A DNA stretch of 64,000 nucleotides, taken from Yponomeuta sedellus (lineage: Eukaryota > Arthropoda > Insecta > Lepidoptera > Yponomeutidae). Below the pieces are notes generated by a model. That model worked only from the letters and a program-made list of their open reading frames with translations. It did no database searches and was not told the origin of the DNA. Shown here piece after piece: positions 24,283 through 57,894 of the stretch; the stretch's first letter is position 1; every line of letters begins with the position of its first letter. Where the stretch lies: the NCBI GenBank assembly GCA_934045075.1, contig CAKOGX010000010.1:1-64000 (forward strand), read 5' to 3'. The translations under genes were made by a program, and so were the position numbers.

Positions 24283-24300
24283 AAAAAAAAAAAAAAAAAA

Positions 24301-29192: not shown

Positions 29193-29496
29193 GACGAGGG
29201 CGCCTGGGCTCTGTTCTTACAGGGGTCGGGCGGGGCTGCCCATCTGGGTATGCGTGAGCACATCGTAATCCCGACTCACCGGGACCGAGGGCCTTGCCGC
29301 TAGCGGGAAGGCTGCGAGGAGTAAACCTCTATAAAAAATCCTGGAAGTGGTACGTGCGCGGCGCTTTCCAGTACTGGGCTTAAGCCGATAAGGCCGACGT
29401 GGAGCCGAAAGGGTTAAGTCCAGGCATCGGCTGTCTGGTTCATCCAGGCAGGCGTACCGCAAACTATATCTATGATATACCGAGAAACGACGAACA
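29193..29496 (+). other. 5' leader of element D
   Basis: Noncoding, near-identical to the leader of B, including the CTGCGAGGAG...AACCTCTATAAAAAA block. The ORF1 ATG follows ACGAACA. Confidence 0.6.
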
Positions 29497-31593
29497 ATGG
29501 AATCAGCACAATTTAAACAGAAACTACCCCAGGAGGGTACCGGCACCTCCGGTGTCGGAGAATCCCTCTCCGAGCTTCTTAGCTCGGGCAGTCCCACGTA
29601 TTCTGGGGGGGACAAAATTATGCTGGATGTCGATAGGGAGAGACACGTGGAGAAGGAGAAAGATAAGGATGAGGAGAAGAAGGAGAAGGATGAGGAGAAG
29701 GAGAAGGAGATGGATGACGTGGAAAGGGAGAAGCAGCGGATTATCGCTAGCTGTTTCGCTGTTCCCGCCGTTGTAGAGCTGGAGCGGATGTCGGAGGCGG
29801 ACTATGAGTCTGACTGCTCTCAGGCTTCACAATGGTCGACGGGTTCCGCCAGAAAGAGAAAACGGGAGAGTGGTGTGACTGTTACGGCCACCAGGGGTGC
29901 GAAGAGGCCGAGGGGTAAGCGTCCTCCACTGGATGAAAGTGTGGACCTCACGAAGCCCCCGCCGGTTACACGGACGTCTCTTAGCCTCCCCGCTCCAGAA
30001 GAACTTGCGGAGCACATGAGGCACCAACCAACAGCTGATCTCGGGGCTCAAGTTAGCGAGAAAATGACAGTGGTTGAGTCGATCGCGGCGAAGTCGACGA
30101 ATCTCAAAGGATTCTTAGTGAGGGAGCTGCGAGTTGCGGCAAGAACCACCAGGGCAGCCATGGAAGAAATGGCGCAGAGGACAAGCTCAGAGAGAGAGCA
30201 GCGGCTTGAAAGCGAAAACGCCTGTCTGCGCGCTCAACTGGCTGCTCTCAAGACACAGGTGTCCGACCTTGCCGCCGAGGTGCAAAGCATGCGCCGGCAA
30301 GACGCCAGGAAGGTTGCCAGCCCACCCCGAGTCGCACAGCCTCAGCCCCAGGGCTCATTTTTGGAGCAGGTCGGGGAAATCATCGATGCGAAACTGGCAG
30401 CCTTCAAGGCGGAAGTTTTCCATGACCGGGTTAGCCTCTCTGCGCTGAGACTTAATGAGGCAGTTGCACCCATAACTGCTGGCAGCGAACCACTTGCAAC
30501 TGAAGCGGCCCCCGCATCTGGCGTTAAGCGGAAACCTGTGAAACGGAAGAAGAAAAAGACAGCCGATCAGAAGCCTCTTCCGGTGGAACCTCTGCCTCCA
30601 ATACCCGCGGCTTCCGCTGCATCGGCAAAGGCGCCGAACCCGAAGTCATGGGCCGAAGTGGCAGGCAAGAAAGCCAAACTCAGGAAGGCGGTGGCCAAAC
30701 AGGCGGCTCCAAAGCCTGCAAAGAAGAAGGCTAAGCAGAAGCCGAAACCGCCAAGGCCACCAAAGTCGTCGGCGGTTATGCTGACGCTTTCCAAGGATGC
30801 TGAGGTCACCTTTGCGCAGGTGATGGCCACCGCCAAAGCCAAGGTGAAGCTCACCGAATGCGGAATTGCTGACATACGGCAGAGGAAAGGCCGAAACGGA
30901 GGTATCCTGCTAGAGGTGACCGGCGCGGAAAGCGTCAGCAACGCCGATAAGCTGGCAGGACGCCTTAAAGAGGCCCTCTCGGATATGCCTGTAAAGGTGG
31001 TGCGTCCCATGAAAACTGGCGAAATCCGAGTCATGGACCTGGACGAGTCAGTAACCATAGAGGAAATTGCGGCTGCAGTCGCTGCCAAGGGCGGCTGTAG
31101 TGCCGACGATGTTAAAGTCGGCACTATACGGGCAAATGGTTACCGACTTGGTACAGCATGGGTACGCTGCCCTCTGACGGCGGTGAGAAAGGTCCTGGAG
31201 GAACCTCGACTTCGCATCGGCGACTGGGCGACTGTCCGGGTGGCGTATCTGCCAGAAAAGCCCGTCAGATGCTACCGATGCCTAGAGACCGGGCACGTAA
31301 GGGACGGGTGCAAGAGCACAATCGACAGAAGCAGCGTCTGCTTCAAGTGCGGAGAACCAGGCCACAAAGCCGCAACGTGCCTTGCCCCACCTAAGTGCCC
31401 CCTCTGCGCAGATCGCGGACAGCGCGCCGACCATAAGATGGGTCAGAGCTGCGCCGCCCCTCCAAGAAAAGGCAATAAGAAAAGAGGAAAGCAGGCCTCT
31501 CGTATTTCCAAAGCCGCAGTGGGAGACTTGGTGTCGCCGAGTCAGCCGGGCCCAAGCTCGGAGCCGGAGGGAAGTCAGGCTTTAAATTCGTAG
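29497..31593 (+). CDS. ORF1 of element D: Gag-like zinc-knuckle protein
   Basis: 698 aa, the closest relative in the window of B ORF1. It has the N-terminal LPQEGT/GESL/YSGG motif, a Lys/Glu-rich stretch at about 45-85, coiled-coil-like heptads near 225-265, a basic Lys-rich middle, a conserved domain (FAQVMATAKAKVKL to GTAWVRCPL), two CX2CX4HX4C knuckles (CYRCLETGH, CFKCGEPGH) and CPLCAD. The final codons are GCU UUA AAU UCG UAG. U UUA AAU is an in-frame -1 slippery heptamer, and ORF2 lies in exactly that -1 frame. Confidence 0.9.
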   Translation: MESAQFKQKLPQEGTGTSGVGESLSELLSSGSPTYSGGDKIMLDVDRERHVEKEKDKDEEKKEKDEEKEKEMDDVEREKQRIIASCFAVPAVVELERMSEADYESDCSQASQWSTGSARKRKRESGVTVTATRGAKRPRGKRPPLDESVDLTKPPPVTRTSLSLPAPEELAEHMRHQPTADLGAQVSEKMTVVESIAAKSTNLKGFLVRELRVAARTTRAAMEEMAQRTSSEREQRLESENACLRAQLAALKTQVSDLAAEVQSMRRQDARKVASPPRVAQPQPQGSFLEQVGEIIDAKLAAFKAEVFHDRVSLSALRLNEAVAPITAGSEPLATEAAPASGVKRKPVKRKKKKTADQKPLPVEPLPPIPAASAASAKAPNPKSWAEVAGKKAKLRKAVAKQAAPKPAKKKAKQKPKPPRPPKSSAVMLTLSKDAEVTFAQVMATAKAKVKLTECGIADIRQRKGRNGGILLEVTGAESVSNADKLAGRLKEALSDMPVKVVRPMKTGEIRVMDLDESVTIEEIAAAVAAKGGCSADDVKVGTIRANGYRLGTAWVRCPLTAVRKVLEEPRLRIGDWATVRVAYLPEKPVRCYRCLETGHVRDGCKSTIDRSSVCFKCGEPGHKAATCLAPPKCPLCADRGQRADHKMGQSCAAPPRKGNKKRGKQASRISKAAVGDLVSPSQPGPSSEPEGSQALNS
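31579..31593 (+). promoter_or_regulatory. Probable -1 ribosomal frameshift site, U UUA AAU
   Basis: The heptamer fits X XXY YYZ in the ORF1 frame and lies just 5' of the TAG at 31591-31593. Slippage by -1 reads on as ..FKFVAPLKILQGN into ORF2 with no stop. The site is absent in B, where a TAA falls at the same place, and imperfect in C. Confidence 0.65.
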
Positions 31594-34500
31594 CCCCACT
31601 TAAAATCCTCCAGGGCAACCTTAATCACTGCCGCAGGGCACAGGACCTGCTACTGCAGACCCTCGCGGAGCATAAGGTTGCCCTGGCGATTGTCGCGGAG
31701 CCCTACAGGGTAGCTGTTCATCCCCGCTGGTTCGGGGATGACAAAAACTCGGTAGCGGCGTATTGGGGAGGAGGAGAAGGGTCTCCGCCATGCTCCCTGC
31801 TAGAGAGGGGATCGGGCTTCGTTGCTATTCTATGGGGCTCAATAGCAGTCATCGGCTGCTACATCTCACCCAACGTCAGCCTGGCGGTGTTCGAGGCGTA
31901 CTTGGACCGGCTCGCAGCATGTGTCCGCCGCTGCCAGCCTCGCCCGGTTCTTGTTCTCGGGGACCTCAACGCTCACGCACGTGCGTGGGGTGGGCCCCGG
32001 GACGAGCCCAAGGGGGAGGCCGTCCTAGATTGGGCGGCGTGCCTGAACCTTGGGCTCCTAAACCGGGGGAATACCAGTACCTGTGTGCGCTGGCAGGGAG
32101 AGTCGATAGTAGACCTGTCCTGGGCATCCCCGTCGGCGGGCGCCATGGTGTCGGACTGGCGGGTAGCGGAGGAGCTGCTGACGCTGTCGGACCACCACTA
32201 TATTTTTATGAACGTGGCGGTGCGTTCCGGCCAAGGAGCGCAGAGCAGCGATATCACACGATCCAGACGCTGGGCACTACGGAAGCTCAACCGGGACCTG
32301 CTTGTGGCCGCCGCGAACTCCGCAGCGTGGGTGGAGCCACCGGTCACTGCCGACGCGGAGGCAGAGACAGCATGGTTCCGGGAGAGGATGGTGCAGATCT
32401 GTGATGCTGCAATGCCTCGGACACGGCCAGTCGAGCGCACCGCTACCTACTGGTGGTCTGACAGTCTGGCAGAAACGCGGGCATCGTGCATCGCAGCCAG
32501 AAGAGCCTACCTGCGAAGCCGGAGGCGGCGACAAGCTTCCTCTGAGGAGAGGCAGGCAGCGTATGCCGCGTATCGGGAGGCCACCACGACCTTCCAAGCG
32601 GCTGTCGCGGACGCGAAGGAGAGGGCGCACCGCGAACTTGTCGACAGCCTAAACGAGGACCCATGGGGGCGTCCGTACAAAATGGTACTGGACAAGCTCA
32701 GACCGTGGGTCCCTCCGTTAACGGAGACCCTGGAGCCTGGTCTCGTGGTCAAGGTGATAGACACTCTGTTCCCGCGAAATGTCGACAGCCCGCCGGGCCT
32801 TCCGTGCACGAGAACAACGCCGCCTCCCTGGCCGGAGAACGCGGACGTCGGTAAGGAGGAACTGGGGCGAGCCGTGAGACGCCTGGCAGTGCGGAACACC
32901 GCCCCAGGCCCCGATGGAATACCAGGTCGCGCCTGGGTGCTCGCGCTGGGCGTCCTCGGTGAGCGGTTCCAGGACCACCTCAGCAACTGCCTGAAGACTG
33001 GGTGCTTTCCGTCGGAGTGGAAGCGGGCGCGGCTGGTTCTACTTAGAAAAGAGGGCAGACCGGCGGACTCACCATCGGCATACCGGCCTATCTGCCTGCT
33101 CGAAGAGGCGGGCAAGTTGTTTGAGCGAGTGGTGGCGGAGCGTATAAACCTCCATCTGTGGAGCGTCGGTCCAGGCTTATCGGACTGCCAGTTTGGCTTT
33201 CGACACGGGCGCTCCACAGTGGACGCAATCCTTCGTGTCCGCTCTATTGCGCAGGAGGCGGTGTCCCAGGGCAGGGTGGTGCTTGCAGTTAGTTTGGACA
33301 TTGTGAACGCATTTAACTCCCTGCCCTGGAAGGCGATCAGAGAGGCTCTCATCCACCACAACTTGCCCGTCTATCTGCGGAGCGTCATCGACGACTATTT
33401 CCGGGACCGCAGCATAGAGTACACTGGCCGTGACAGGGCTTCGCACAGCCGGGACATGTACTGCGGGGTCCCACAGGGGTCGGTCCTGGGGCCACTCCTG
33501 TGGAACCTCGCGTACGATGTGGTTCTGCGAATCACTCTCCCCGTCGGTGTACGGCTGGTTTGCTACGCCGACGACACGCTTGTCCTGGCCGAGGGCGACG
33601 ACTTCAGCCGCACATCTCGCGTCGCTGAGTGTGGTGTCGCATGCGTGATCCGCAAAATCCGAGCCCTAGGGCTACAGGTAGCCCCGCAGAAGACCGAAGC
33701 CTTATGGTTTCATGACCTCCCTAGGGGCTCGGAACCGCCTAGCTCTACGATTCGCGTCGGAGACACTGCGGTCCAGGTGGGGAAATATATGAAATACCTC
33801 GGCATCGTTCTGGACGGCCGTTGGGAGTTCGTCGAGCACTTCGACCGTCTGGTCCCCCGGATCGAGAAGGTAGCGGGTGCCCTTCACCGTATCCTGCCTA
33901 ATCTTGGGGGGCCGCGGGAGAGTGTTCGGCGACTCTACTCGGGGGTCGTGCGGTCCATGGCCCTATATGGAGCGCCAATATGGGCGGATGAGCTGGCCGG
34001 CAATCGCGCATGCAGAGCTAAACTGCTTAGCGTGCAGCGCCGGCTAGCCATATGGGTGGCGCGCGGGTACCGCACGATCTCCCACGAAGCGGCAGGTCTA
34101 CTAGCGAGACTTCCCCCCCTGGATATCCTGGCGTCAATGGACGCGAAAGTGTACAGGGAGCTTCATCACATACGTGAGGACGGACAGGATTTGCCTCCCA
34201 GAGCGGTAGCCCTGATGCGCCAATCGGCACATGTCGAAGCGCTCGAAGAGTGGCGAGCCCGACTGCAGGAGCCGGCTAGTCAACGGCAGAGAGTCGTGGG
34301 GGCGGTCCTGCCCGTCTTCCATGAGTGGATGAGTCGCGCCGACGGCCAGATAACCTACCGGTTGACGCAGATGCTCACCGGACACGGGTGTTTTGGCGAG
34401 TACCTGCACAGGATTGGAAAGGAGGAGTCACCCAGATGCCACCACTGTAACTCCACCACTGATGACGCCCAACACACCTTGGAGGTCTGCCCCGCGTGGC

Positions 34501-34733
34501 AATCGCAGCGACTCGACCTAGTTGCTGCGATCGGAGCAGACCTCCAGCTGCCTGCCGTAGTAGCGGCCATGATACAAGGCAAGTCACAGTGGGACGCAAT
34601 GGCCGCCTTTTGCGAGTCAGTTATGACTCAAAAGGAGGCGGCAGAAAGAGAGAGGGAAAAGGCCGACCCCGCAAGGAGGCGGAGGCGCAGAGGCGGCGCA
34701 AATCAACCCCGCCCTGGCCAAAATGCCCTGTAG
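31590..34733 (+). CDS. ORF2 of element D: endonuclease-reverse transcriptase, SART-like
   Basis: About 1047 aa in the -1 frame relative to ORF1, open from the overlap to the TAG in the first 75 bp repeat. The first GTG-type start (31887) would delete the endonuclease N terminus, so that is not the real start. Endonuclease: QGNLNHC, AEPYRV, GDLNAHA, SDHHY. RT: SLDIVNAFN, GVPQGS, YADD, YLGIVLD. C-terminal CHHCNS...H...C zinc motif and Arg-rich tail. Confidence 0.9.
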   Translation, partial: VAPLKILQGNLNHCRRAQDLLLQTLAEHKVALAIVAEPYRVAVHPRWFGDDKNSVAAYWGGGEGSPPCSLLERGSGFVAILWGSIAVIGCYISPNVSLAVFEAYLDRLAACVRRCQPRPVLVLGDLNAHARAWGGPRDEPKGEAVLDWAACLNLGLLNRGNTSTCVRWQGESIVDLSWASPSAGAMVSDWRVAEELLTLSDHHYIFMNVAVRSGQGAQSSDITRSRRWALRKLNRDLLVAAANSAAWVEPPVTADAEAETAWFRERMVQICDAAMPRTRPVERTATYWWSDSLAETRASCIAARRAYLRSRRRRQASSEERQAAYAAYREATTTFQAAVADAKERAHRELVDSLNEDPWGRPYKMVLDKLRPWVPPLTETLEPGLVVKVIDTLFPRNVDSPPGLPCTRTTPPPWPENADVGKEELGRAVRRLAVRNTAPGPDGIPGRAWVLALGVLGERFQDHLSNCLKTGCFPSEWKRARLVLLRKEGRPADSPSAYRPICLLEEAGKLFERVVAERINLHLWSVGPGLSDCQFGFRHGRSTVDAILRVRSIAQEAVSQGRVVLAVSLDIVNAFNSLPWKAIREALIHHNLPVYLRSVIDDYFRDRSIEYTGRDRASHSRDMYCGVPQGSVLGPLLWNLAYDVVLRITLPVGVRLVCYADDTLVLAEGDDFSRTSRVAECGVACVIRKIRALGLQVAPQKTEALWFHDLPRGSEPPSSTIRVGDTAVQVGKYMKYLGIVLDGRWEFVEHFDRLVPRIEKVAGALHRILPNLGGPRESVRRLYSGVVRSMALYGAPIWADELAGNRACRAKLLSVQRRLAIWVARGYRTISHEAAGLLARLPPLDILASMDAKVYRELHHIREDGQDLPPRAVALMRQSAHVEALEEWRARLQEPASQRQRVVGAVLPVFHEWMSRADGQITYRLTQMLTGHGCFGEYLHRIGKEESPRCHHCNSTTDDAQHTLEVCPAWQSQRLDLVAAIGADLQLPAVVAAMIQGKSQWDAMAAFCESVMTQKEAAEREREKADPARRRRRRGGANQPRPGQNAL

Positions 34734-34875
34734 TCATGGGCTTAGAATAAGACTACGGTATCCCCTGCCTGTCGTAGGAGCCGACTAAAAGGGGGACCAG
34801 CCCTGTAGTCCCGGGCTTAGAATAGGGCTACGGTATCTCCTGCCTGTCGTAAGAGGCGACTAAAAGGAGACTCCG
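34726..34875 (+). repeat. 75 bp tandem repeat x2 spanning the ORF2 stop of element D
   Basis: Copies start at 34726 and 34801 (CCCTGTAGTC). Same structure and internal differences as in B, so the duplication predates the split of B and D. Confidence 0.9.
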
Positions 34876-35174
34876 GGGTCGTAGGTGGTGAGAGTGGGGG
34901 CTCGAGCCACCGGTCCAAGCGACCCCGTGGAGGCGGCGGTGTGTGGTGGCCGCACACTGCCGTTCGGTGAGGCTGCCCCGGCATAGCCGGTTTCGAGGAC
35001 GGGTGCATAAAGCACAGTGCGCGAGGGCTCCGGTGTGTTCATTGAGATCCCGGAGCCCTCCTCCACACGCACTGAGGGGGCCACCGGGGGGGTTTTAGTT
35101 GGTAAAAATCCAACATAACCCGGCTTTCCCCCCAGAAAGTCGGGTATCTTTCTGAAGATTTCCCCCCCGTCAAC
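34876..35174 (+). other. 3' UTR of element D with terminal fold
   Basis: Noncoding, very similar to B. CGGGGGGG (35085-35092) pairs with CCCCCCCG (35162-35169) around GUUUUAGU. Confidence 0.75.
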
Positions 35175-35192
35175 AAAAAAAAAAAAAAAAAA

Positions 35193-44700: not shown

Positions 44701-45464
44701 TTAGCCTTTTTTGTATTATATAATCTGGTGGTGGTTTCTATTTTAATGCCTGTGGATTTCTTTAATCTAATATTAAAAGTTATGCCATTGTGGTCCGAGG
44801 AGGTCATTCCTACTTCGACTTTCCAATCTGCCACCAAGCTGAGAAGGTCCGCCGAGCAAGCGGTGACATCCACATGACTGCTATAAATTTTTCCACCCCT
44901 GATAGTGTCAAAGGTGGGTGTGGTGCCGCCGTTGAGCACATGCATGTCCATTTCATCTAGTGTGCTAGACAGTTCTTCACCCCTATGGTCTTCGATTGTG
45001 CTCCCCCACCAAGGGCTTTTGGCATTAAAATCACCTCCAATTAGCAGTCTGTTTGGCCCTAGCTTCCGCCGAACTGCTCCGAGGTGCTCCAAATACGGCC
45101 CAATGGGCTGATCCGGCTCAAAATAAGTCGATACGACTGCGATTTCCCAGGCGCGGGTTCGGATCCTTACAACTGTCATATTGTGTGTGGTGAGATCCGG
45201 ACACTGTATAACATCTAGGTCGTTGTCGAAAACCACAATCGCTGCCTTTACGGTTCCACTTCCTTCCTCCGACGCCTGGAAAATTCTTGTGCCACGATAC
45301 TGTCGCATTCTCCTGATTCCGCCCACATACGGCTCCTGTACTAAGGCAAGAGCCGCATTCTTTGCTGTGGCATCCCGGAACAATTCGGCAGTCGCCAGTT
45401 CCTTCCGTTGGAGGTTGGCCTGAACAAATCTGTACGCCCTAGTTTCCGCGGCGGTGCCCTCAGC
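41778..45464 (-). CDS. ORF2 of element G: endonuclease-RT-RNase H, TRAS-like
   Basis: About 1228 aa, overlapping the ORF1 TGA in the +1 frame. The frame reads ..AYRFVQANLQRKELATAEL with no ATG before the endonuclease core. Endonuclease motifs QEPYVGG, GGDFNAKS and SDHNGI; RT motifs SLDIEGAFDN, GCVQGSIGGP and FADD (near 690); RNase H about 940-1070 with FTDGSKI, YQAELL, SDSRAA and NERADDLA; C-terminal CTCDP...H...C. Base composition drops in GC at 44530-44780 within the endonuclease-RT linker, unlike the rest of the frame. Confidence 0.9.
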   Translation of the reverse strand, partial: AEGTAAETRAYRFVQANLQRKELATAELFRDATAKNAALALVQEPYVGGIRRMRQYRGTRIFQASEEGSGTVKAAIVVFDNDLDVIQCPDLTTHNMTVVRIRTRAWEIAVVSTYFEPDQPIGPYLEHLGAVRRKLGPNRLLIGGDFNAKSPWWGSTIEDHRGEELSSTLDEMDMHVLNGGTTPTFDTIRGGKIYSSHVDVTACSADLLSLVADWKVEVGMTSSDHNGITFNIRLKKSTGIKIETTTRLYNTKKANWSQFREKLEQLKIEHQINKNAIEKINNIKELEIKTELYLDIIQKSCEISIPKKKKQPKFTLPWWSEDLAILKKEVATRKRRIRCAAPVRREGVVAAYLEKKQEYELKAKCAQIQSWKDFCTKQDREGVWEGIYRVIGRTATRHEDLTLERDGVPLDSAGSASYLAQTFYPEDSELSDNGHHKDTRQLARGVNDRVHAEIHDPPFTALELTTAVSSFNPKKAPGVDGFTADICRQTVYQDPDSFLALANKCLSLGHFPKKWKEATVVVLRKPGKDDYKNPKSYRPIGLLPVLGKVLEKMVVARLQWHLVPRLSTRQYGFMPQRSTEDSLYTLVNQIRAELKLKKMVLLVSLDIEGAFDNAWWPAIRVRLAEEKCPVNTRRLLDSYLDGRCVRLRYDGAEHRRETQKGCVQGSIGGPILWNVLLDPLLAGLKQRGVSCQAFADDVVLFFAGSTALELQRSANAALGFVHGWGVLNKLRFAPQKTCAMLLTNKLKHDIPLLSMAGVDIGMSREMKILGLTIDDKLTFNTHVSNVCRKALNIAKQLTRAARIGWGLHPDVVRVIYTATVEPIITYAAAAWAPAVEKLGIRKLLNAVQRGFAQKICKSYRTVSLNSALLLAGLLPLDLRIKEMAALYEARKGQARLVLGDREVERVVRFAELPHPALRMDMRITNLEDQGQVDQHNVQELRIFTDGSKIQGKVGAALSLWDSRAEIGCRKLSLPAYCTVYQAELLAICRASSEILKRGLKSCGIYSDSRAALQTVTNPGSLHPLALEARRNLSEALTRGKDITLFWIKAHAGIDGNERADDLAKEAALSSRKKPDYDLCPISFVRQDLRNRALDEWNRRYRSGETASVTKVFFPDAIAAHKLVRKIQPQGVITQIFTGHGGFSQYLNRFRCRESPSCTCDPAVEEGVQHIIFECPVFCILRHELEQKIGVNIVEKEAHNIIANKNTRWQFLDYAEKICKTVIERNKEA

Positions 45465-46689
45465 AATACGCTATTTTTGCTCGAGCCAGTGCATCCCACC
45501 TTCGGCGAACCGGGCAGTCTGTGCTAAATGCGTTATGCCTCGGTGACTCCATGTTTGCTTTTACACAGTTGCAACACGTGGGGGATGCACCGGCGAGCGC
45601 TTCCGGACAGTCTTTGCGCTGGTGAGGGCCACCGCAGTAACCACATAGCTCGTCATTTTCATTGCAGAGACGTCTGCTGTGCCCATACCCCAGGCACTTG
45701 GAGCATTGAACCAGGGGAGACTGGTCCTCTACTTTAATACGCTGTATGTCAATGTATACAGCGGACGCCTCCACTAGCCGGCTCCAGAGCGCAGGTGACG
45801 CCCTCGCGACCACATGGCACATTAATGTGTTTCTTGCCGGTTTTCTGAACCTTATCTCGAGCCTGTCATCGCCCTCTCCCAGGCCGGAGAAAAGCGAATT
45901 GTTTTGATTTCGCAGAGCCTTCACGATATCCTCGTCATTATTTATCTTTAAGACATCTCTGAAAATTACGAGAGGGTCCTGGTTTCGGACATCTTGAACC
46001 TCAAGCTGATGTTCCTCTTTTTCCAGTTTGTTCCGGACCCTGCTCCGCTCTTCCTCACTTCTACAGCTGATAATTATTTTGCTGTTTTTTATTTTCCTAA
46101 CTTTATCTATGCATATGCCTTCTTGATTCGCGTTAATCGCCTGCCTAATCTTTCCGATTACCTCCTCTCCTGTGTTTTGGGTGTCTTTGGAAGCGACCAC
46201 TACCGAGTGCAGCGTTGTCTGCACCTGGCGCGGCGCAGCTCCGATAGGTTTAGTGCCCGCCGTCACACTCGCGTAGGTGATCGCTTCCATGGCCTTGCAT
46301 TGCCTCGAGAGAGCCCCTTTTAACTCCTCTATTTTCTCGTTGCTATCTCTTATTAGCTTCTCGTGATCAGCCAGGGAGGTAAGCAGCCTTGAGATCCCCT
46401 CACTATCTGCTCTGGTTTCATCTTGTTGGGTTTGAAGTTCTTCAACCCAAGCCTCCTTTTCTTTCTCCCTCTCTTTTCCTTTCAATGCCTCCTTAACCAG
46501 CTGGAATAGTTTGTCAATGACCTGGGTAACATCCGCTTTTATATCGGTTTTTAGATTGCGGGAGTTCTTTAGGGCGATTTTGCCCTTGGTTACCCAGTTT
46601 CTTGCCTCTTGTAATTTTTTAGATGTTGGCGTGCTGGCTGCTGTAGGACTATCCACCGCACTCGAAGAAGCCATGGGATGGGAACCCAT
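45460..46689 (-). CDS. ORF1 of element G: short Gag-like zinc-knuckle protein
   Basis: 409 aa against about 730-765 in J and H. It opens directly at the insertion junction. Its first part (ARNWVTKGKIALKNSRNL) aligns with the helical segment that lies at about residue 170 of J ORF1, so the N terminus is probably lost. A charged coiled-coil region, an RRM-like segment and three zinc motifs (CSKCLGYGH, CGYCGGPH, CCNCVKA) remain. It ends in Tyr-Cys-TGA like the other TRAS-like ORF1s. Confidence 0.85.
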   Translation of the reverse strand: MGSHPMASSSAVDSPTAASTPTSKKLQEARNWVTKGKIALKNSRNLKTDIKADVTQVIDKLFQLVKEALKGKEREKEKEAWVEELQTQQDETRADSEGISRLLTSLADHEKLIRDSNEKIEELKGALSRQCKAMEAITYASVTAGTKPIGAAPRQVQTTLHSVVVASKDTQNTGEEVIGKIRQAINANQEGICIDKVRKIKNSKIIISCRSEEERSRVRNKLEKEEHQLEVQDVRNQDPLVIFRDVLKINNDEDIVKALRNQNNSLFSGLGEGDDRLEIRFRKPARNTLMCHVVARASPALWSRLVEASAVYIDIQRIKVEDQSPLVQCSKCLGYGHSRRLCNENDELCGYCGGPHQRKDCPEALAGASPTCCNCVKANMESPRHNAFSTDCPVRRRWDALARAKIAYC

Positions 46690-47188
46690 GGTTAGGTTAG
46701 GTTAGGTTAGGTTAGGTTAGGTTAGGTTAGGTTAGGTTAGGTTAGGTTAGGTTAGGTTAGGTTAGGTTAGGTTAGGTTAGGTTAGGTTAGGTTAGGTTAG
46801 GTTAGGTTAGGTTAGGTTAGGTTAGGTTAGGTTAGGTTAGGTTAGGTTAGGTTAGGTTAGGTTAGGTTAGGTTAGGTTAGGTTAGGTTAGGTTAGGTTAG
46901 GTTAGGTTAGGTTAGGTTAGGTTAGGTTAGGTTAGGTTAGGTTAGGTTAGGTTAGGTTAGGTTAGGTTAGGTTAGGTTAGGTTAGGTTAGGTTAGGTTAG
47001 GTTAGGTTAGGTTAGGTTAGGTTAGGTTAGGTTAGGTTAGGTTAGGTTAGGTTAGGTTAGGTTAGGTTAGGTTAGGTTAGGTTAGGTTAGGTTAGGTTAG
47101 GTTAGGTTAGGTTAGGTTAGGTTAGGTTAGGTTAGGTTAGGTTAGGTTAGGTTAGGTTAGGTTAGGTTAGGTTAGGTTAGGTTAGGTT

Positions 47189-47191
<3 letters not shown>
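46690..47191 (+). repeat. Longest telomeric TTAGG block, about 100 perfect units
   Basis: About 502 bp of uninterrupted TTAGG lies between G and H, with no variant unit seen. The exact number may be affected by assembly. Confidence 0.97.
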
Positions 47192-47243
<52 letters not shown>

Positions 47244-47244
<1 letters not shown>

Positions 47245-47428
47245 TGATACTTCTGTTTCCACAGACTCTGGGTCCGTGCCTTTTTTCTGTGCGTTACATT
47301 ATTTATTTTTCCCATGGTACTCTATCTCTCTGAGCTACATTATCTTGCGTACTGTTGTTGTCGTACTACACACACACTTATTCTAGCCTATAGTAACTTA
47401 AGTAACTTATATATATATATTTTTTTTT

Positions 47429-47493
<65 letters not shown>

Positions 47494-47748
47494 TTTATTT
47501 TTTACTTTTTTTTTTTTTTACTTTTTTTTTTTTTTTTTTTTTTAATTTTTTTTTTTTTTTTTTTATTATTATTTTTTTTTTTTTTTATATACAATCATGC
47601 TCTTTTTTTTTTTTTTTTTTTATAACTCTTTTATAAAATCCTGCAATTTTTCTATTCCCTTATTTTCATTGTTTTTTTTTTTTTTTTTTGCCATTTAACC
47701 TTATCTTTACCTGTGATTACATTATTACATTACTTGTTTTTAGATTAC
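47244..47748 (-). other. 3' UTR of element H
   Basis: On + it is dominated by T runs (about 47419-47695) interrupted by single bases, which means long internal A-rich tracts in the transcript. No GUUUAGU fold is seen at its end, unlike J. The F-rich open frames here are homopolymer artefacts. Confidence 0.7.
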
Positions 47749-50700
47749 CTATATGTGTTCCGTGATTGTGTTTGAGCAGGTCGGCCGCGGCGCGTCTACT
47801 TCGTTCAGGTGGTTTTGGACGATCGACATGTCTCGGGATTTCAGTGCCATTTTGAGGTTGTAGTCCGTTATTTTCTTCGAGGCTGTTTCCGCCGCTTGCT
47901 TTGCAAAACTGCCGACCGCGTCCATTCTGCTGTCGGTGTAATAAGTGCAGCTATCGGTGTGCCGTGATATTGCCACTACTGCATGTGGGACGCTCTCGAA
48001 CAGCTTGTGCGATTTGGTCTGCGTTCGGACGATTATCACCGACTCGTAGGTTAGACCCTGAGCTTCGTGGATTGTTAGTACGCACGACCCGTAGCCTATA
48101 CCGTATCCCTGGCTGGTTAGGGATTTCTTTTCCTCCTGTGTATGGGTGAGGAAAAGGGTTTTTGGTTGGCTTTTTGGTATTTGTGCGCCGCTAAATTTTT
48201 TCAGCTCGATGGAATGTACCCGAGTTCTTGACGAGTACATTCCTGGGTAAACTTCTCTGAGAGCGTACGCCACGTCCATCGGGTTTCGGTGCGTGCATAG
48301 CAGCTCCTGATCGATGGTCGCCATCAGGCTAGGGCGGCTGTAGCGCATCTCGAACAGATTTTCACGGTCGATGTATGGTAGTTGGTTGACATCTCCAACG
48401 AGGACGATCTCGCCCGCCTTTGACAGTCGGGCGGCCATTACTATAGCCCCAAAGTGGTTCATGAGAGCCTCGTCGACCAACAAGCGTTTGATCTTAACGG
48501 GCTCCCTGAATCCATTTGCTAATATTGAGGCCATAGTTCGCACCTTTGAGTTTGCTTCTTCGCCCAGACGGTGCGAAAGCTTCTCTCTCAGGTTTTTGAC
48601 CGCTTCGGCTGTCGTGGCTACCGCCATGTCCCCCTCGCTGAAAAGGTCCACCAACCACGTCGTCTTCCCGCATCCCGGTACTCCGTTTGTCCATCGAATC
48701 TTTGGAACCTCCCACGAGTCTGACTGCTGGTCGACCGACTTTGCCTTGTTGAGGATTTTGTCCTCCAGCATGATTTTGGTGCATCGGGCGACGACCACCA
48801 CCGGGTGCTTTCCTGTGTCTCGGAATCTCAGCTTGCCTGTACGCCTCGTCTCCTCCTCGTTCAGGACCACGAAAACTCCCGACTCGGTGTATGCAGCCAT
48901 GTATTGACCTGACATTGTTCCTCTGAGGGTCTGACTGGTGTCGTTGTCATAGATGGCTGCCTCGGCCTCCTCGAGTCTCACCTTCAGCAGCCTCTCATTT
49001 CCGAGCTGGAAGGACTGCAGTATCTTTTTGCATGTAGCTAGACTTACTTCTTTGTAGGCTTTTGTCATAGCTTGAAACTCGAGGAAAGCGTTTCTCAGGT
49101 GGTCCTCCGGCCTCCTCACTGTTACGAGACTTGGCGGGCTGACTTGCCCCTTGTCGGCTCTCGTTCGGTTGCCCTGCACCGGTTCTCGCTGTTTCGCTGG
49201 TGTTTTTAGGTATTTAGACGCGGCGGCCTCCTGCCTTTCTGCTGCCTTGGATGTGCTTGGCTGTTTTCTGTAGATGGCTGTTCCAAGGGCGTCCATGAAC
49301 GCTTTGATAAGGCCTCTCGCCCCCGCGTCTCCTGCGGGACTAGCTTTGTCTCTTTTTTTTGCTTCTTTTTCCGCCGCACGCTTTTTTTGTAGTCTCTCTG
49401 ACCCGCTTTGCGCGTCCGAGTCGGCAGGCTGTGTCGCTTTTGCCTTGTGGTGTCTAAGGAAGTCCAGGCTTTGTCCTCGGTCCTCGTACACCACCACCTC
49501 GTGGTTTTTAGAGGCTTTTAGGCAACCTACGTAGTCTGCGACCTCCCCCGCGTCGATCCCGGTGCGCATTACGTCCACGCTGATTTTTTTGGCGGTGATG
49601 GGCTCGCCCACTTTTGGTTCTCCCATTTTTGAGAGCACTGAGCATACCTGAGCAAACGGCGACTCCGTGCCCCAGCCGAATAGTGCAATCGTTTTGTTTC
49701 GTAGTTGCACTAGTCGGCACGGGCAACCTCCCGCCTGTGACTCAGGCAACGCGTCGAATGTTCTTCGTTTCATCTTTGTACTGGCGGTGTTCCCGTTCAG
49801 CATGGACGCGAGGCCTGGTGATACTGACACTTGCTTTCCTGTCGCGCGGCAGAAGCTTATCCCTAGGGTTTCGTCATCGCCGTCCATGAAGAGAGCCACT
49901 CCCCGCACTCTCATTCCCGGTTCACCGCTCTCTCCGCTCTCCAAGATGTTTGCGGTTGCGTTTCCGGTGCCCGTGGCCTGCGTTGCTGGTGGAGTCCCCG
50001 TGTCCTGCACGGCGGCGGCGCTCGTGTCGTTCGTGGAGGCATCTGTGACAATGGCTGCGGGTGCTTTGGCAGTCGTGCTGTTTCCCTGAGCGGCGATTCG
50101 TGCGGCTTTGCTCGCAAAATCGAGGAACGGTGTTTTCATGGCCTGATTTGTCATGATGGTGGGGAGCGCAGCCTGTTCCAGTTTTATCTGGAGCCTCTGT
50201 TCCAGCTGTAGCCTTTCCCGGCCGAATCTCGGACAGTCGAGCAAAACATGCCATATAGTTTCATCGCAGTTTGGGTCACAGGGGCAAGAGGGGCTGTCCT
50301 TTAGGTGGAAGCGGTGGAGATACGCGGCGAATCCTCCGTGTCCGGTCAGAATCTGCACATGCACCGGTGTTATAACTGTGTCTTTTAGCACTTGTCTTGC
50401 TGTATGGACCGTTGGTAGAAACGTTTTTGTGACCGAACCTGTCTCGGAGGACCCGTATCGCTGCTGCCACTTCCTTACAGTGTCCTCCCGTATCTGCCTC
50501 CTCACGAACGACAAGGGAACTTTATCGTAATCCGGGGCCGTCTTCTTTGTAAGGGCTGCTTTTTTGGCCAGGGCGTCTGCTCTTTCGTTGCCGGGGGTGC
50601 CCACATGAGCTCTTAGCCAGAAGAACCTCACGCTCCTGTTTTCGGCTCGGATTTCTTGTACGAGTCTCTTAATCTCTAGAGCTAGTGGGTGGGTTACTGA

Positions 50701-53700
50701 CGGACAACTCAGGAGATCGAGCGATGATCTTGAGTCGCTCAGTATGTTGGCTGTGTCCGTCTTTTTGTCTCTCACCATTTTCACTGCTCTGTAGAGAGCG
50801 TACATTTCCGATTGGAACACGGTATTGTGGGGCTCCAGGCGGAAGGTCGAGTATTTGGACTCTTTTCCATTGGACCACCATGTTAGGGCAGCCCCTACTT
50901 TGCCTTCGATTTTACTGCCGTCTGTGTATATCTGCGGGCCGACCATCTGTAGGTCCTCCAGTGTTTTGGGCTCCATATCTTCGAGGCGCTCGTACTCCGT
51001 TGTTGTCAGTTGGGATGGGTGGGGATGGTCAAAGTATCCGACCTTGCGCTCTAGCTCTCTGCCCGGTGGCATGAACTCCTTAGAGTGACCTTTCTTTACT
51101 TTAAAGAGCGCGGCAGCCTCCATGACACGGAGGTCCAGTGGCAGTTGGCCCGACAGTATCAGTGCCGATGTTAGAGACACCGTGCGGTACGCTTTGATGG
51201 ATTTCTGCGCAAAGCCCCTTTGCAGCGAGTCTAGCTGATTACGTATCATCAACTTCTCCGCCGCCGGGTGCCAGGCGCTGGCCGCGTATAGCACGATTGG
51301 CTCTATCACCGACACATATATGGTTTTGATGATGTCCGTGTTCAGTCCCCAGCTCACCTTTGCTGCGCACGCTAGCTGTTTGTATATGTCCGCAGCCTTT
51401 TTGCAAGTTGCGGCCACGTGCGCATTGAAAGTGAGCTTTCGGTCGATGATAAGGCCCAGTAGCTTGATTTCCTCAACGAGTTTTACCTGGGTGCCTGCCA
51501 TTTGGATTTCTGGGTTGTCGTACTTAAGTTTTTTCGTTATGACCATTGCGTTTGTTTTGTGCGGGGCGAAGTTGAGCTTGTTTTCGTCTCCCCAGTCTGA
51601 CACTATTTTTAGAGTCTCGTTGGCTCTTTGCTGGAGGGCATCGACGCTGTGGTCTGAGAACACGAGGACAACGTCGTCGGCGTAGGCTTGGCAGAAGATC
51701 TTGTTGCTCGCCATTTTCAGTAGCAGTGGGTCCAGGATGAGGTTCCAAAAGGTTGGTCCGGCTATACTGCCCTGTACGCAGCCCTTCGTGGTTTCTTTTT
51801 CGCTCGTTCTTCTGGCGTAGTTGACTAGGACTTTTCTGTCTTGAAGGTAAGAGGCCACCAGCTTGTACAGATTCTTAGGGCACTTATTTTTCCTCATTTG
51901 TAGCTTTAGGGCGGGCCACCACGCATTGTCGAAGGCCCCCTCGATGTCCAGCGAGACAACGAGTACGAGTTTTTTCGATTTTACCTCTGCTCGTATATGG
52001 TCTAGCAGGTCATAGAGGGCGTCCTCGGTTCCGCGCTGAGGCTTGAACCCGTACTGGCTGAGGCTTTGGGTGGGAAGGAAGTGCCACTGAAGCCTGCACA
52101 CCAATAGCTTCTCCACGATTTTTCCGAGGACCGAGAGTAGCCCGATTGGTCTGTAAGATTTTGGGTGGGTGTAATCTTCTTTGTTGGGCTTCCGGAGGAT
52201 GCACACGTGGGCGATCTTCCATTGCTTAGGGAAGTGCGGCAGCTCTAGGCATTTGTTTGCCATTGCCAGGAACACATCACTGTTGCATCGGATTGCTGCT
52301 GCGCAAATGTCGGCCGTTAGTCCGTCCGGGCCGGGAGCTTTTTTCGGGTTGACGTCCTTGAGTACCATTTCCAGCTCCGCGGCCGTAAAGGGGGGGTCGT
52401 CACTTGTTAGGCATTGCGACTCCGTTTCGGTGCCCTCCTCCGTGAGCCTTCTCAGGTTTGTGTGGTGTTCATTGTCGGTTTCTACAGAGTCGTCAGGATA
52501 GAACGTTTTTGCCAGAAGCTCCGCCGACTGTTCTGGGCTCAGTGTTTCGCCCGCGGGGCTTCTTAGCAACATGTCGTCGTATCTCCTGGACGTTCTCCTC
52601 AAAACTCTGTAGATGCCGTCCCACATACTCTCTCGGTCCTGGGTCGAGCAAAACTCCTTCCAGCTTTGCGTGGCGGCGTCGGCGGCGCGGAGTTTGTAGT
52701 TTTCTTTGGATTCGAGGTATTGGTCGATCGTGAGTTGTCTTCGAGTTGGGGCTGCGTTTCTGATTCTCCTTTTTCTCTTGAGCACCTCTCTCTTTAGTGC
52801 GTCAAGAGCGTGGGACCACCATGGGGGCCTTGCATCGCCCTTCCGTGGGCTGATTTTCGGAATTGCTTCCTCGCATGCATCGCGGATGGTGTCTGTATAT
52901 GTTGTCAACATGTTTTCCAAATCCTCCGGGTTACGCACGTACGAGACTGTTCTTGGTGTTATGCTGTTTTCGGTTAGGCCAGCAGTGAAGAGTGCTTTGA
53001 AGTCGGACCACTTAGCTTTTTTGGTGTTGTACTTTCGAGTTGAGACTGTTCCTAAAGGTTCCAAGGCCTTTCCCAATCTCAGCGAGAATGTTATAGCGTT
53101 GTGGTCGGAAGTGGTGAGATTTTTGTTCACTCTCCACCCTGCGATCTTACCCAGCAAAGGGAGGCTGCATACAGTCACGTCTACGATGCTTTTGTACTCT
53201 CTGCCTCCCCGGTAGTCTTCGTAGGTTGGTGTTTGGCCCGTGTTGAGGATCTGGAAATCCATTTCGTTGAAGAAGGCGGTACACGCCGCTCCGCGGTGGT
53301 CCTCGGAGTTGCTACCCCACCATACACTCCATGCGTTTAGGTCCCCGCCCACCAGAATGTTGTTTGTTCCCAGTTTGTCGCATGCTGCTTTGGTTTTTGC
53401 CAGGTATGGCTCGACGTTCTCTGTTCCTTTGTGGTTCCCGTAGTAGACGGATACTACTCCAAGTTTTAGTTGATCTGCCTTGATAAGGACGGCTGCGACG
53501 TCTTCGGTGACTAGTTGAGGGTCGTGAATGACCTCCAGACTGTCTCCGAATATAACAATCGCCGCCCTTACCGGCTTCTCGCGGTGCAGTGTGCATTGGA
53601 TGACACGGGTACCAGGGCTTTGTTTCAGTACGCCTGCACTTCCCACGTAGGGTTCCTGTACAAGTGCAATCGTAACTCCCTTTTCACGTGCTAGTGCCAT

Positions 53701-53814
53701 TAACTCAGCTGTTGCTAGCTTAGAACGCTGGAGGTTCGCTTGGATGAAGAGCAGTTTACTTGTTGATCCGTCCACTTGAGTTCCACAGTCGTCGGTTGTT
53801 CCGTTTTGTGCCAT
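47749..53814 (-). CDS. ORF2 of element H: endonuclease-RT-RNase H fused to a superfamily 1 viral-type helicase
   Basis: 2021 aa from the ATG at 53814; the frame runs on upstream into the +1 overlap with ORF1. Endonuclease about 1-240 (QANLQRS, QEPYVG, GGDLNAW, SDHNAI). RT about 480-770 (SLDIEGAFDN, GCVQGSIAGP, YADD). RNase H about 955-1090 (YTDGSKI, FQSEMY, SDSRSS, NERADALA). CPCDP...H...C follows near 1190. An unassigned region of about 180 residues comes at about 1300-1480, then a basic linker. The helicase covers about 1700-1960: P-loop GVPGCGKT (1711-1718), VDEA (1780-1783), GDVNQLP (about 1816), HEAQGLTYESV (about 1920) and VAISRHTD (about 1950). The motif set is that of alphavirus-like (+)RNA virus helicases. 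No RdRp follows. No frameshift or stop interrupts it. Confidence 0.9.
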   Translation of the reverse strand: MAQNGTTDDCGTQVDGSTSKLLFIQANLQRSKLATAELMALAREKGVTIALVQEPYVGSAGVLKQSPGTRVIQCTLHREKPVRAAIVIFGDSLEVIHDPQLVTEDVAAVLIKADQLKLGVVSVYYGNHKGTENVEPYLAKTKAACDKLGTNNILVGGDLNAWSVWWGSNSEDHRGAACTAFFNEMDFQILNTGQTPTYEDYRGGREYKSIVDVTVCSLPLLGKIAGWRVNKNLTTSDHNAITFSLRLGKALEPLGTVSTRKYNTKKAKWSDFKALFTAGLTENSITPRTVSYVRNPEDLENMLTTYTDTIRDACEEAIPKISPRKGDARPPWWSHALDALKREVLKRKRRIRNAAPTRRQLTIDQYLESKENYKLRAADAATQSWKEFCSTQDRESMWDGIYRVLRRTSRRYDDMLLRSPAGETLSPEQSAELLAKTFYPDDSVETDNEHHTNLRRLTEEGTETESQCLTSDDPPFTAAELEMVLKDVNPKKAPGPDGLTADICAAAIRCNSDVFLAMANKCLELPHFPKQWKIAHVCILRKPNKEDYTHPKSYRPIGLLSVLGKIVEKLLVCRLQWHFLPTQSLSQYGFKPQRGTEDALYDLLDHIRAEVKSKKLVLVVSLDIEGAFDNAWWPALKLQMRKNKCPKNLYKLVASYLQDRKVLVNYARRTSEKETTKGCVQGSIAGPTFWNLILDPLLLKMASNKIFCQAYADDVVLVFSDHSVDALQQRANETLKIVSDWGDENKLNFAPHKTNAMVITKKLKYDNPEIQMAGTQVKLVEEIKLLGLIIDRKLTFNAHVAATCKKAADIYKQLACAAKVSWGLNTDIIKTIYVSVIEPIVLYAASAWHPAAEKLMIRNQLDSLQRGFAQKSIKAYRTVSLTSALILSGQLPLDLRVMEAAALFKVKKGHSKEFMPPGRELERKVGYFDHPHPSQLTTTEYERLEDMEPKTLEDLQMVGPQIYTDGSKIEGKVGAALTWWSNGKESKYSTFRLEPHNTVFQSEMYALYRAVKMVRDKKTDTANILSDSRSSLDLLSCPSVTHPLALEIKRLVQEIRAENRSVRFFWLRAHVGTPGNERADALAKKAALTKKTAPDYDKVPLSFVRRQIREDTVRKWQQRYGSSETGSVTKTFLPTVHTARQVLKDTVITPVHVQILTGHGGFAAYLHRFHLKDSPSCPCDPNCDETIWHVLLDCPRFGRERLQLEQRLQIKLEQAALPTIMTNQAMKTPFLDFASKAARIAAQGNSTTAKAPAAIVTDASTNDTSAAAVQDTGTPPATQATGTGNATANILESGESGEPGMRVRGVALFMDGDDETLGISFCRATGKQVSVSPGLASMLNGNTASTKMKRRTFDALPESQAGGCPCRLVQLRNKTIALFGWGTESPFAQVCSVLSKMGEPKVGEPITAKKISVDVMRTGIDAGEVADYVGCLKASKNHEVVVYEDRGQSLDFLRHHKAKATQPADSDAQSGSERLQKKRAAEKEAKKRDKASPAGDAGARGLIKAFMDALGTAIYRKQPSTSKAAERQEAAASKYLKTPAKQREPVQGNRTRADKGQVSPPSLVTVRRPEDHLRNAFLEFQAMTKAYKEVSLATCKKILQSFQLGNERLLKVRLEEAEAAIYDNDTSQTLRGTMSGQYMAAYTESGVFVVLNEEETRRTGKLRFRDTGKHPVVVVARCTKIMLEDKILNKAKSVDQQSDSWEVPKIRWTNGVPGCGKTTWLVDLFSEGDMAVATTAEAVKNLREKLSHRLGEEANSKVRTMASILANGFREPVKIKRLLVDEALMNHFGAIVMAARLSKAGEIVLVGDVNQLPYIDRENLFEMRYSRPSLMATIDQELLCTHRNPMDVAYALREVYPGMYSSRTRVHSIELKKFSGAQIPKSQPKTLFLTHTQEEKKSLTSQGYGIGYGSCVLTIHEAQGLTYESVIIVRTQTKSHKLFESVPHAVVAISRHTDSCTYYTDSRMDAVGSFAKQAAETASKKITDYNLKMALKSRDMSIVQNHLNEVDAPRPTCSNTITEHI

Positions 53815-53821
53815 GGCGCCC

Positions 53822-56119
53822 TTAGCAATACGACACTCTGGATCGGGCTATGTGGTCCCACTTTTGTCGTTCGCCGCATGCGTCGCTGAAGGCCACGTGT
53901 GCCAGGTCAGTTCCCTCCTTCTTTGCTGTCTTGCAGTTAACGCATACCGGAGCCTTGCCGTCGTTCTTCAGGGTACAGTCCCGACCAGTGTGTGTCTCTG
54001 CACAGTAACTGCACGTGTCGTGCGCTGCCCTGCACACAGATTTTGTGTGTCCGTAGCCTAGGCACTTCATACACTGCACCAGAGGGGACTGGTCCTCTAT
54101 TCGGCATCTTTGCATTCCTATATGCACCTTTTCTGCCTCCATAAAACGCTTCCATACGCACGGCGAAAGCTCCACGACTGGGTGGCATTCGTGCGGGTTT
54201 CTTGCGCGTCTTCTGTAGCGCATTCTGACTATCTGTTCGTCAGCTTTGATGTTTTGCAAAAGGTGTTGGTTCTGCGCCTTCAGTAGCTCTACGATCTCCT
54301 CGTCAGTGTTGACAGACAGAACTCCTCGAATGCACGCCAGGGGGTTGGCCGGCTTTGGCTCCTGCACCGTTAGACCTCCGCTGGCCTGAACTTTGTCACG
54401 TACGAGCTTCAGGTCTTCCTTGCTCGCACAGCTGACAACAATCTTCCTGTTCCGGGCCTTCCTGACCTTGTTGACTTTGGCACCGGTCTTTTTGAGCTCT
54501 AGTGCCTTGGTTACGTCGTCGATAACATTTTGCCCTGTGTGGTCTGGGTTTTTCGACGCTATGATCAGCGTATGGTTGGGTTGTTTAGGCGGCGGCGGCC
54601 TCGTCAGCGCCTGGGCGAAGGTTTTTGGTCCTTGCGTAGGTTTTTCTGCAGTATTCAGGACGGATACGCCTTTTTCGATTTTTTCCAGTTTTTCTTTGAC
54701 CTCGGCCATGGCAATTTCCGCTTCCAGGTTCGGCGCGGGAGGCGCCGGCGCCTGCGGTTTCGCGTCGCGCAAAGTGCGGATGTCTGACGACACTATCTGC
54801 AGGCGTTCGGAGAGCGGTTCAAGTTCTTTTGCCAAGTCGGGGTGAGGAGGGGGCGGTGGAGGGGGGGAGCAGGGTGGCCTTGCGAGGATCTGCAGTGCGA
54901 TGGCTTTGACCGCAGTCACTTCTTCCTCTACTCTTGCGATGGCGGGGGCGTCGTCGTGCCAGCCGCCCGCAGACACTTTTCCATCTGGGGAGGCCGGGTC
55001 TCGGTGTTGATGTTCGGCTTCCGCGGTCCTTCTCATAGCGTCCAGTTGGTTCGAGAGGCTTTTGATACTGGACCCGACTTTGGAGAGGCTCGCCTCTATG
55101 TTCGCCAGTTTTTGGCATTCGGCAGTCTTTGAACCGTCTCCGCCGTCGGTTTTTAGGCTGCCTTCGAGTTTGGTTCCCAAGGCCTCTATCGCTTTTCTTG
55201 CTTCGCCAACTTCCCGGAATGAGGTCGCCGTTTCCAGACCCAGCCAGTCTCTCACGGACTTCGCCTCCTTTAGAGTTTCGGCAATGTTCGTGTTTGCCTG
55301 GAGAAGTTCCGCCGTGAGATTTTGGCGCACTAGAGCTTGTTCCTTTGCGTGCGCCCTCTCAACCCTCACTAGTTCTTGTGCGTGGCGGGAGCGTTCCTTC
55401 TCCAGGTTGAACTTGTGCCTGGCCCGCGAGTCCGACAAGGAGAGGCAGATTTCGTAGAGAGCTTGCAGGCAGTCGAGGGCGGTCGTTTTGTACTCCTTCT
55501 TTATGTTTCCGGACGCTTCGAGAGCGTCCTTGCCCTTCTGGAGCATCTGGTTGGCCTCCCTGGTTGCGCAGTCCATCTCTACGCCCGTACCTCTCCTCGG
55601 CGTTGAGTATAGAATGCTTGGTCGCGACCGGCCGCCCGCCGACGATGCCACGGAGGACGTCATAGAACTCTCGTCGTCCGTCGGAAGTGGCTTGGGGGGA
55701 GATATGCCGCATTGCTCCCAGTTGGTGATGCGGTCGACGGCGTATCCGACAACATTCTGGGCCTCAGGTTCCGCCGTCGGTGTTGTCTGCTGGTTGTTTG
55801 TGGGAGGTCCAGCTTCCCCGTCGGCGACCCCCGATGTCGTGGCGATCGTTTCGATCGTTGTGGCTTCGCAGGTCGCCGCAGGGGGCTCAATATTCTTCAC
55901 GGGTGTCTCGGTGCTTGCGCGGTTTTTTGCCTTGCTGTTTCTCTTTTGGTCGTCCGCCGCGGTCCTGGACGCTGCTGACTGTCGCGTCTGCGTTGCTGGC
56001 TTTGCCGGCCTCTCCGATTTAACGGACCTGGCAACTGCTGCTTTTGTTAGTACTTTTTCCCTTAGCGATCTACCCGACTTGGTTGACGCTCCCGCGGACG
56101 GTCTGCTCTGGGTTGACAT
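53822..56119 (-). CDS. ORF1 of element H: Gag-like zinc-knuckle protein
   Basis: 765 aa, starting MSTQSRPSAG. An Ala/Thr-rich N terminus is followed by a helical region (GKDALEASGNIKKE to ERAHAKEQA) homologous to J, and a Pro-rich spacer near 430 (CSPPPPPPPH). The RRM-like domain lies at about 530-610, and three zinc motifs close the protein (CMKCLGYGH, CSYCAETH, CVNCKTA). It ends Tyr-Cys-TAA. ORF2 begins 7 nt later at an ATG, but its frame is also open across the stop in +1. Confidence 0.9.
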   Translation of the reverse strand: MSTQSRPSAGASTKSGRSLREKVLTKAAVARSVKSERPAKPATQTRQSAASRTAADDQKRNSKAKNRASTETPVKNIEPPAATCEATTIETIATTSGVADGEAGPPTNNQQTTPTAEPEAQNVVGYAVDRITNWEQCGISPPKPLPTDDESSMTSSVASSAGGRSRPSILYSTPRRGTGVEMDCATREANQMLQKGKDALEASGNIKKEYKTTALDCLQALYEICLSLSDSRARHKFNLEKERSRHAQELVRVERAHAKEQALVRQNLTAELLQANTNIAETLKEAKSVRDWLGLETATSFREVGEARKAIEALGTKLEGSLKTDGGDGSKTAECQKLANIEASLSKVGSSIKSLSNQLDAMRRTAEAEHQHRDPASPDGKVSAGGWHDDAPAIARVEEEVTAVKAIALQILARPPCSPPPPPPPHPDLAKELEPLSERLQIVSSDIRTLRDAKPQAPAPPAPNLEAEIAMAEVKEKLEKIEKGVSVLNTAEKPTQGPKTFAQALTRPPPPKQPNHTLIIASKNPDHTGQNVIDDVTKALELKKTGAKVNKVRKARNRKIVVSCASKEDLKLVRDKVQASGGLTVQEPKPANPLACIRGVLSVNTDEEIVELLKAQNQHLLQNIKADEQIVRMRYRRRARNPHECHPVVELSPCVWKRFMEAEKVHIGMQRCRIEDQSPLVQCMKCLGYGHTKSVCRAAHDTCSYCAETHTGRDCTLKNDGKAPVCVNCKTAKKEGTDLAHVAFSDACGERQKWDHIARSRVSYC

Positions 56120-57637: not shown

Positions 57638-57868
57638 GGTTAGGTTAGGTTGGTTAGGTTAGGTTAGGTTAGGTTAGGTTAGGTTAGGTTAGGTTAGGTT
57701 AGGTTAGGTTAGGTTAGGTTAGGTTAGGTTAGGTTAGGTTAGGTTAGGTTAGGTTAGGTTAGGTTAGGTTAGGTTAGGTTAGGTTAGGTTAGGTTAGGTT
57801 AGGTTAGGTTAGGTTAGGTTAGGTTAGGTTAGGTTAGGTTAGGTTAGGTTAGGTTAGGTTAGGTTAGG
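57638..57868 (+). repeat. Telomeric TTAGG block
   Basis: About 46 units lie between H and I. The third unit from the left is a variant (GGTTGG, one A missing), the only clear imperfection in any block. Confidence 0.97.
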
Positions 57869-57894
57869 TTTTTTTTTTTTTTTTTTTTTTTTTT

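Follow-up and report, generated by a model that had tools for sequence, protein, structure and literature searches.

Element H, a LINE in the telomeric window analysed here (the 64,000 nucleotides from the start of Yponomeuta sedellus contig CAKOGX010000010.1), appears to be a telomeric TRAS LINE in which the C-terminal ~730 residues of ORF2 come from a contiguous stretch of a virga-like (+)RNA-virus replicase, with a helicase that would aid retrotransposition, a reading to which a probability of about 0.7 can be given. It is based on comparisons of sequences and structures, which show the ordered domains in an unbroken frame, homology to the viral protein P0054 across the entire block, and the telomeric site. 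The acquired block would comprise a macrodomain-like domain (domain A), the N-terminal accessory domain of the helicase itself (domain B) and the SF1 core, all from one replicase polyprotein, and its transfer as a block is supported. What has been regarded as a LINE with a viral helicase becomes a LINE carrying a contiguous piece of a viral replicase, whose three domains are to be tested jointly, and a closer virus lineage, P0054-like, can now be named as donor.

The original prediction referred to reports of helicase-bearing TRAS elements in Lepidoptera, and the literature does describe exactly such a fusion (PMC4686597, Lazareva 2015; PMC5563155, Morozov 2017; PMC5803895, Geisler 2018). The fusion type is known, and H adds one example. 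Like H, the published TRAS-SF1H LINEs have ORF1 followed by an ORF2 with the order EN-RT-RNase H-zinc-spacer-SF1 helicase. In the available text of these three accounts the spacer is similar to nothing and the viral likeness is limited to the helicase, whereas the spacer of H is homologous to part of a virus replicase and resembles two folds of the virus type. Neither a viral homology or macro fold of the spacer nor a TTAGG-flanked helicase copy is reported in the accessible parts of the fusion papers within the open-licence PMC literature.

Element H in its telomeric setting

The window contains 12 exact runs of at least three TTAGG units (1360 bases when counted in this way). In every run the plus strand is the G strand, and the runs are set between LINEs of both orientations. 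Element H lies within (TTAGG)n on the minus strand and extends over about 10.4 kb, from 57637 to 47192 (Table 1). Its ORF1 stop (53822) and ORF2 ATG (53814) are separated by 7 nt, the first ATG of ORF1 being found at 56119.

Table 1. Features of element H and of the flanking repeats (window positions)
Feature	Position	Strand	Remarks
(TTAGG)n array, ~100 units	46690..47193	+	3' side of H; GGTT abuts the element's poly(A) (poly(T) on +)
3' UTR and poly(A) tail	47192..47748	-	tail 47192-47243; extent from sequence reading
ORF2, 2021 aa, unbroken	47749..53814	-	ATG at 53814
SF1 helicase core	47935..48687	-	residues 1710-1960; Viral_helicase1 E 3.2e-35
Domain B	48712..49146	-	residues 1557-1701; homologous in P0054 and P0056
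Domain A, macrodomain-like fold	49450..49947	-	residues 1290-1455; homologous in P0054
RNase H	50554..50931	-	residues 962-1087; RNase_H E 9e-12
Reverse transcriptase	51454..52185	-	residues 544-787; RVT_1 E 7e-37
Endonuclease	53092..53730	-	residues 29-241; Exo_endo_phos_2 120-241 E 5e-16; Exo_endo_phos 29-217 E 0.05
ORF1, gag-like, cysteine-histidine knuckle-like runs near end	53822..56119	-	ATG and knuckles by eye from translation
(TTAGG)n array, ~47 units	57638..57870	+	5' side of H; one irregular step in first units

The 3' junction of H reads (GGTTA)n GGTT with the poly(T) of the tail directly after it, and the exact insertion base is ambiguous by up to 2 because of the T run there; the 5' junction reads |GGTTAGG. 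Elements I, G and J, the other TRAS-like LINEs considered, have a 3' junction identical to that of H, and G and J also have the 5' GGTTA start, the 5' end of I lying beyond the window. TRAS1 is described as cutting at the T-A step on the TTAGG strand and at the C-T step on the other strand (PMC2868851, PMC7265360), and the insertion of H agrees with such cuts, T|A on the TTAGG and C|T on the CCTAA strand. With its intact frame and TRAS1-type junctions, H is a telomeric LINE of the TRAS family (R1 clade) and looks complete. In the published descriptions available, TRAS1 and TRAS3 share with H the EN-RT-RNase H-zinc order, the poly(A) tail and TTAGG insertion at the T-A and C-T steps; unlike H, they are without the helicase block. 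The available text of PMC6338049 states that helicase-bearing TRAS copies are absent near (TTAGG)n, and H, as read from this assembly, is a counter-example to that statement.

In the neighbouring element G, the start codon of ORF1 (45460-46689) lies right at the TTAGG boundary (46690), so that its 5' UTR is seemingly absent or very short.

A viral helicase and its preceding domains

The original prediction placed five ordered helicase motifs of the virus type, rather than the cellular one, in a single frame with endonuclease, RT and RNase H. All five are located, in that order, at residues 1711-1954 (window 47953-48684, minus strand), starting at 1711 (GVPGCGKT), 1780 (VDEA), 1807 (GDVNQLP), 1916 (HEAQGLTYES) and 1947 (VAISRHTD), and Pfam finds all four domains in an ORF2 without a stop. 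A Pfam search with the whole protein confirmed Viral_helicase1 (E 3e-35) as the best helicase family, next to weaker helicase-type matches to AAA_19 (7e-8), AAA_30 (5e-7) and AAA_11 (0.04). Among PDB sequences, the top solved relatives are those of the tomato mosaic virus helicase (3.6e-28 and 4.3e-28), followed by alphavirus nsP2 (7e-8 and 3.5e-7) and then RecD (0.03), while Upf1 and Pif1 are absent both among the 11 distinct sequences listed to E 10 and among the 6 to E 0.1 with the helicase piece. A cellular Upf1/Pif1-type origin was rejected given the lack of such a match among these PDB sequences and an AAA_11 match of only E 0.04. The ordered motifs and the best Pfam family support an assignment of the H helicase to the alphavirus-like, virus-type SF1 group. 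With regard to its relatives, the alphavirus-like type that had been predicted stands, and the closest ones are invertebrate virga-like viruses (as published; here P0054) rather than tobamoviruses, whose replicase helicase (3vkw, 3wrx, 3wry) is at most about one third identical according to published figures, in a comparison without the macro-like domain.

The helicase region of H matched 72 proteins in a large collection, 54 of which also align by BLAST with H residues 941-1240, the RNase H/zinc part; the other 18 are viral replicases. The possibility that the assembly joined an unrelated insertion to the RT part, raised at the outset, was discarded because 54 other proteins carry both parts and the frame of ORF2 is unbroken. 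The H helicase is 63-65% identical to its closest database relatives, and the TRAS-type relatives bearing species names are all lepidopteran, for example Spodoptera, Plutella, Vanessa, Ostrinia and Plodia. Across 55 TRAS rows, Walker A, motif II and GDxNQ are conserved in 55/55, HE[AV]QG in 49/55 and motif VI in 54/55.

The helicase does lie within 47749..49000, as first delimited, while the viral-like block begins further upstream, near residue 1290 (window ~49947) and not at 49000. When H residues 1240-2021 were used in BLASTP, residues 1290-1498 aligned with P0054 1518-1743 (E 3e-13) and residues 1467-1999 with P0054 1827-2376 (E 2e-112), with the order preserved. P0054 has 3147 aa, is encoded on one contig of 10,908 nt, and contains methyltransferase, FtsJ, helicase and RdRP_2 domains. 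Profiles of the TRAS spacer built without P0054 match it at 1.3e-23 (residues 1285-1470) and 8e-36 (1550-1700), and the latter also matches P0056 (3.6e-11), P0058 (1e-3) and P0057 (8e-3); in a shuffled control of 900 replicases the best E values were 0.12 and 0.17, respectively. The TRAS alignments A1 and A3 comprised 48 of the 54 proteins (without P0015, P0027, P0043, P0045, P0046 and P0048). A search with the spacer gave 42 matches among the 7988 candidates scored, all of them TRAS-type proteins. With residues 1450-2080 of P0054 as query, the 7981 candidates scored, out of a larger number, yielded P0042, a TRAS protein, besides P0054. Three pattern matches to relatives of P0054 were obtained in viral contigs, none of which was confirmed.

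Domains A, B and helicase occur in the same order in P0054 and H, and P0056 shares B and helicase with H. Unlike in TRAS, the block is flanked in the viruses by a methyltransferase and an RdRp, neither of which is retained in the LINE. Domain B corresponds to the accessory domain at the N-terminus of tobamovirus-type helicases, and its presence in viruses is old, because P0056 and, weakly, P0058, which lie outside the TRAS/P0054 clade, carry it before the helicase. Domain A was looked for in P0056-P0058 and not found; within the searches made, it is present by sequence in TRAS and P0054 only. Its predicted fold is macrodomain-like, and the domain was folded alone as a check, with the macro matches already visible beforehand. 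Residues S1332, P1333 and G1334 are invariant in 55/55 rows. The Asn motif by which macrodomains bind ADP-ribose is NAAN. A motif of this type is absent from residues 1303-1345 of domain A, as judged from sequence, and the nearest position, 1323, is N in 29/55 rows and R in H. The macro folds of the SARS-unique domain, which bind G-quadruplexes, are low in the Foldseek list.

Possible roles of the fused block

In the proposed mechanism, the endonuclease would nick the TTAGG strand at its T-A step, and the RT would copy the element RNA starting at the poly(A). The fused helicase would use ATP in the same ribonucleoprotein to open RNA structure or the RNA-DNA hybrid, or to strip proteins, with domain B serving the core as it does in the virus and domain A possibly binding some ligand (ADP-ribose, RNA or protein). 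The role of the helicase would be RNA unwinding in the retrotransposition complex. Should it aid target-primed reverse transcription, its contribution to a retrotransposon could readily be examined by comparing R1-clade elements that have a helicase with those that lack one.

The chief rival, possible although clearly behind the preferred reading, is that the helicase has been retained as a suppressor of RNA silencing, which would unwind or sequester dsRNA or small RNAs of the element against siRNA/piRNA control and take no direct part in reverse transcription. Such a function is proposed in the available text of PMC4686597 and PMC5563155, with a reported plant-virus complementation experiment on the domain from Plutella, termed preliminary by the authors, and the conserved catalytic motifs are compatible with either role. 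Silencing suppression leaves unexplained, however, both the retention of the helicase in one protein with the RT (54/54 TRAS rows) and the conservation of domain A, and the window itself offers nothing on it.

Distinctly less probable is an old passenger block, fixed by chance and with an idle helicase, or else an antiviral device of benefit to the host, acting through chimeric cDNA with viral RNA (2019). The ORF2 of LINEs tolerates C-terminal additions, as noted in the text available from PMC4686597, the antiviral scheme has been put forward in PMC6338049, and neighbouring TRAS elements without the block are also telomeric. A passenger would nevertheless not be expected to keep its catalytic motifs in nearly all 55 rows and the S-P-G residues of domain A in every one. 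The 2019 scheme, as given in the accessible part of PMC6338049, leans on the absence of helicase-bearing TRAS near TTAGG; the position of H in (TTAGG)n counters both the printed claim of a departure of helicase copies from the telomere and the scheme derived from that claim.

As predicted, the ORF2s of the neighbours J, G and I (1251, 1201 and 1263 aa, respectively) show EN, RT and RNase H in Pfam and match none of its helicase families at E<=1. They had been put forward as a natural comparison for H, a use for which they are poor matched controls, since their RTs are 49-55% identical to that of H (G 55%, J 53%, I 49%; P0001, 77%) and fall outside its well-supported clade. In a quick RT tree, from which P0015 and P0043 were dropped as too short, H is within a clade made up of 52 helicase-bearing rows (SH-aLRT 100), with G and the helicase-bearing P0044 at its base in an unsettled order. 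A loss of the helicase by G, J and I was rejected, as all three are outside this clade, and on their RT sequences they are separate TRAS lineages, not copies of H minus the domain.

With regard to other LINEs, the available text of PMC5563155 describes a virus-type SF1 helicase in Jockey-family elements as well, which, unlike H, belong to a different clade, carry the helicase in ORF1 and are considered of independent origin. The same work proposes an Upf1-like organisation in which the zinc domain acts with the helicase. Such an organisation is unsupported in H, though not disproved, because ~400 residues of virus-like A and B separate the zinc part from the core.

Origin of the block

A helicase tree of 73 rows, none dropped, groups the 55 TRAS rows in one clade (96/59), within which H pairs with P0002 (96/95). 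P0054 is sister to this clade (joint clade 100/98), P0056-P0058 are next, and the other viruses lie outside. In a tree of domain B plus helicase (52 TRAS rows and 4 viruses, omitting P0014, P0027, P0049 and viruses P0059-P0072), P0044 falls outside P0054 in the best topology; 60% of the 200 bootstrap trees have a single TRAS clade, which the AU test does not reject (p-AU 0.345). The trees therefore call for a virus-to-TRAS transfer from a P0054-like lineage. One acquisition by TRAS is likely, with two acquisitions, or a later return to the virus, still within what the trees allow. P0044, a TRAS protein that branches basally by its RT and falls outside P0054 when domain B and helicase are combined, may represent either a lineage that split off early or a second acquisition.

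The P0054 helicase is 51% identical to that of H over 90% of the query and 48-51% identical to the four TRAS helicases compared. Identities between P0054 and P0056-P0058 are 37-40% for the helicase, 41-44% for the RdRp and 29-32% for the methyltransferase. Such tables are uninformative on the direction of transfer because the TRAS helicases are about equally distant from P0056-P0058 (33-42%) as P0054 is.

It seems improbable that TRAS took the helicase only and that the spacer was born in the LINE, the P0054 lineage having received spacer and helicase from TRAS, even though domain A is found by sequence in TRAS and P0054 only and in one of the two trees P0054 is nested within TRAS, with one row making the difference. 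Against this, domain B occupies the same pre-helicase place in two viruses outside the TRAS/P0054 clade, P0056 (3.6e-11) and, weakly, P0058, the helicase-only tree keeps P0054 outside 55/55 TRAS rows, and an initial virus-to-TRAS transfer is required anyway. A more elaborate form of the preferred reading, in which the telomeric TRAS took the three-domain viral module whole and uses it at the chromosome end, is a long shot. In it, the macro-like domain would bind G-rich nucleic acid or telomere proteins that are ADP-ribosylated, while the helicase would clear the template or target for reverse transcription; the transfer as a block is supported, the telomere-specific use being speculation.

Other repeats were observed in the window. 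Between 4777 and 9913 there are five minus-orientation units of ~0.84-1.06 kb, 91-97% alike and with poly(A), mostly between short (AGGTT)n runs; their longest minus-strand open stretches are of 149-202 codons, and parts of them are ~76-82% alike to 17127-17587 on the opposite strand. From its sequence, this family looks like a non-autonomous retroelement inserting in telomere repeats. Two plus-strand SART-like elements (18128-24299 and 29028-35191), in the orientation opposite to the TRAS-type ones, are 81% identical over their full length. At 3853-4456, just past a plus-strand LINE ORF, a 297-bp unit is present as a tandem pair with 93% matches.
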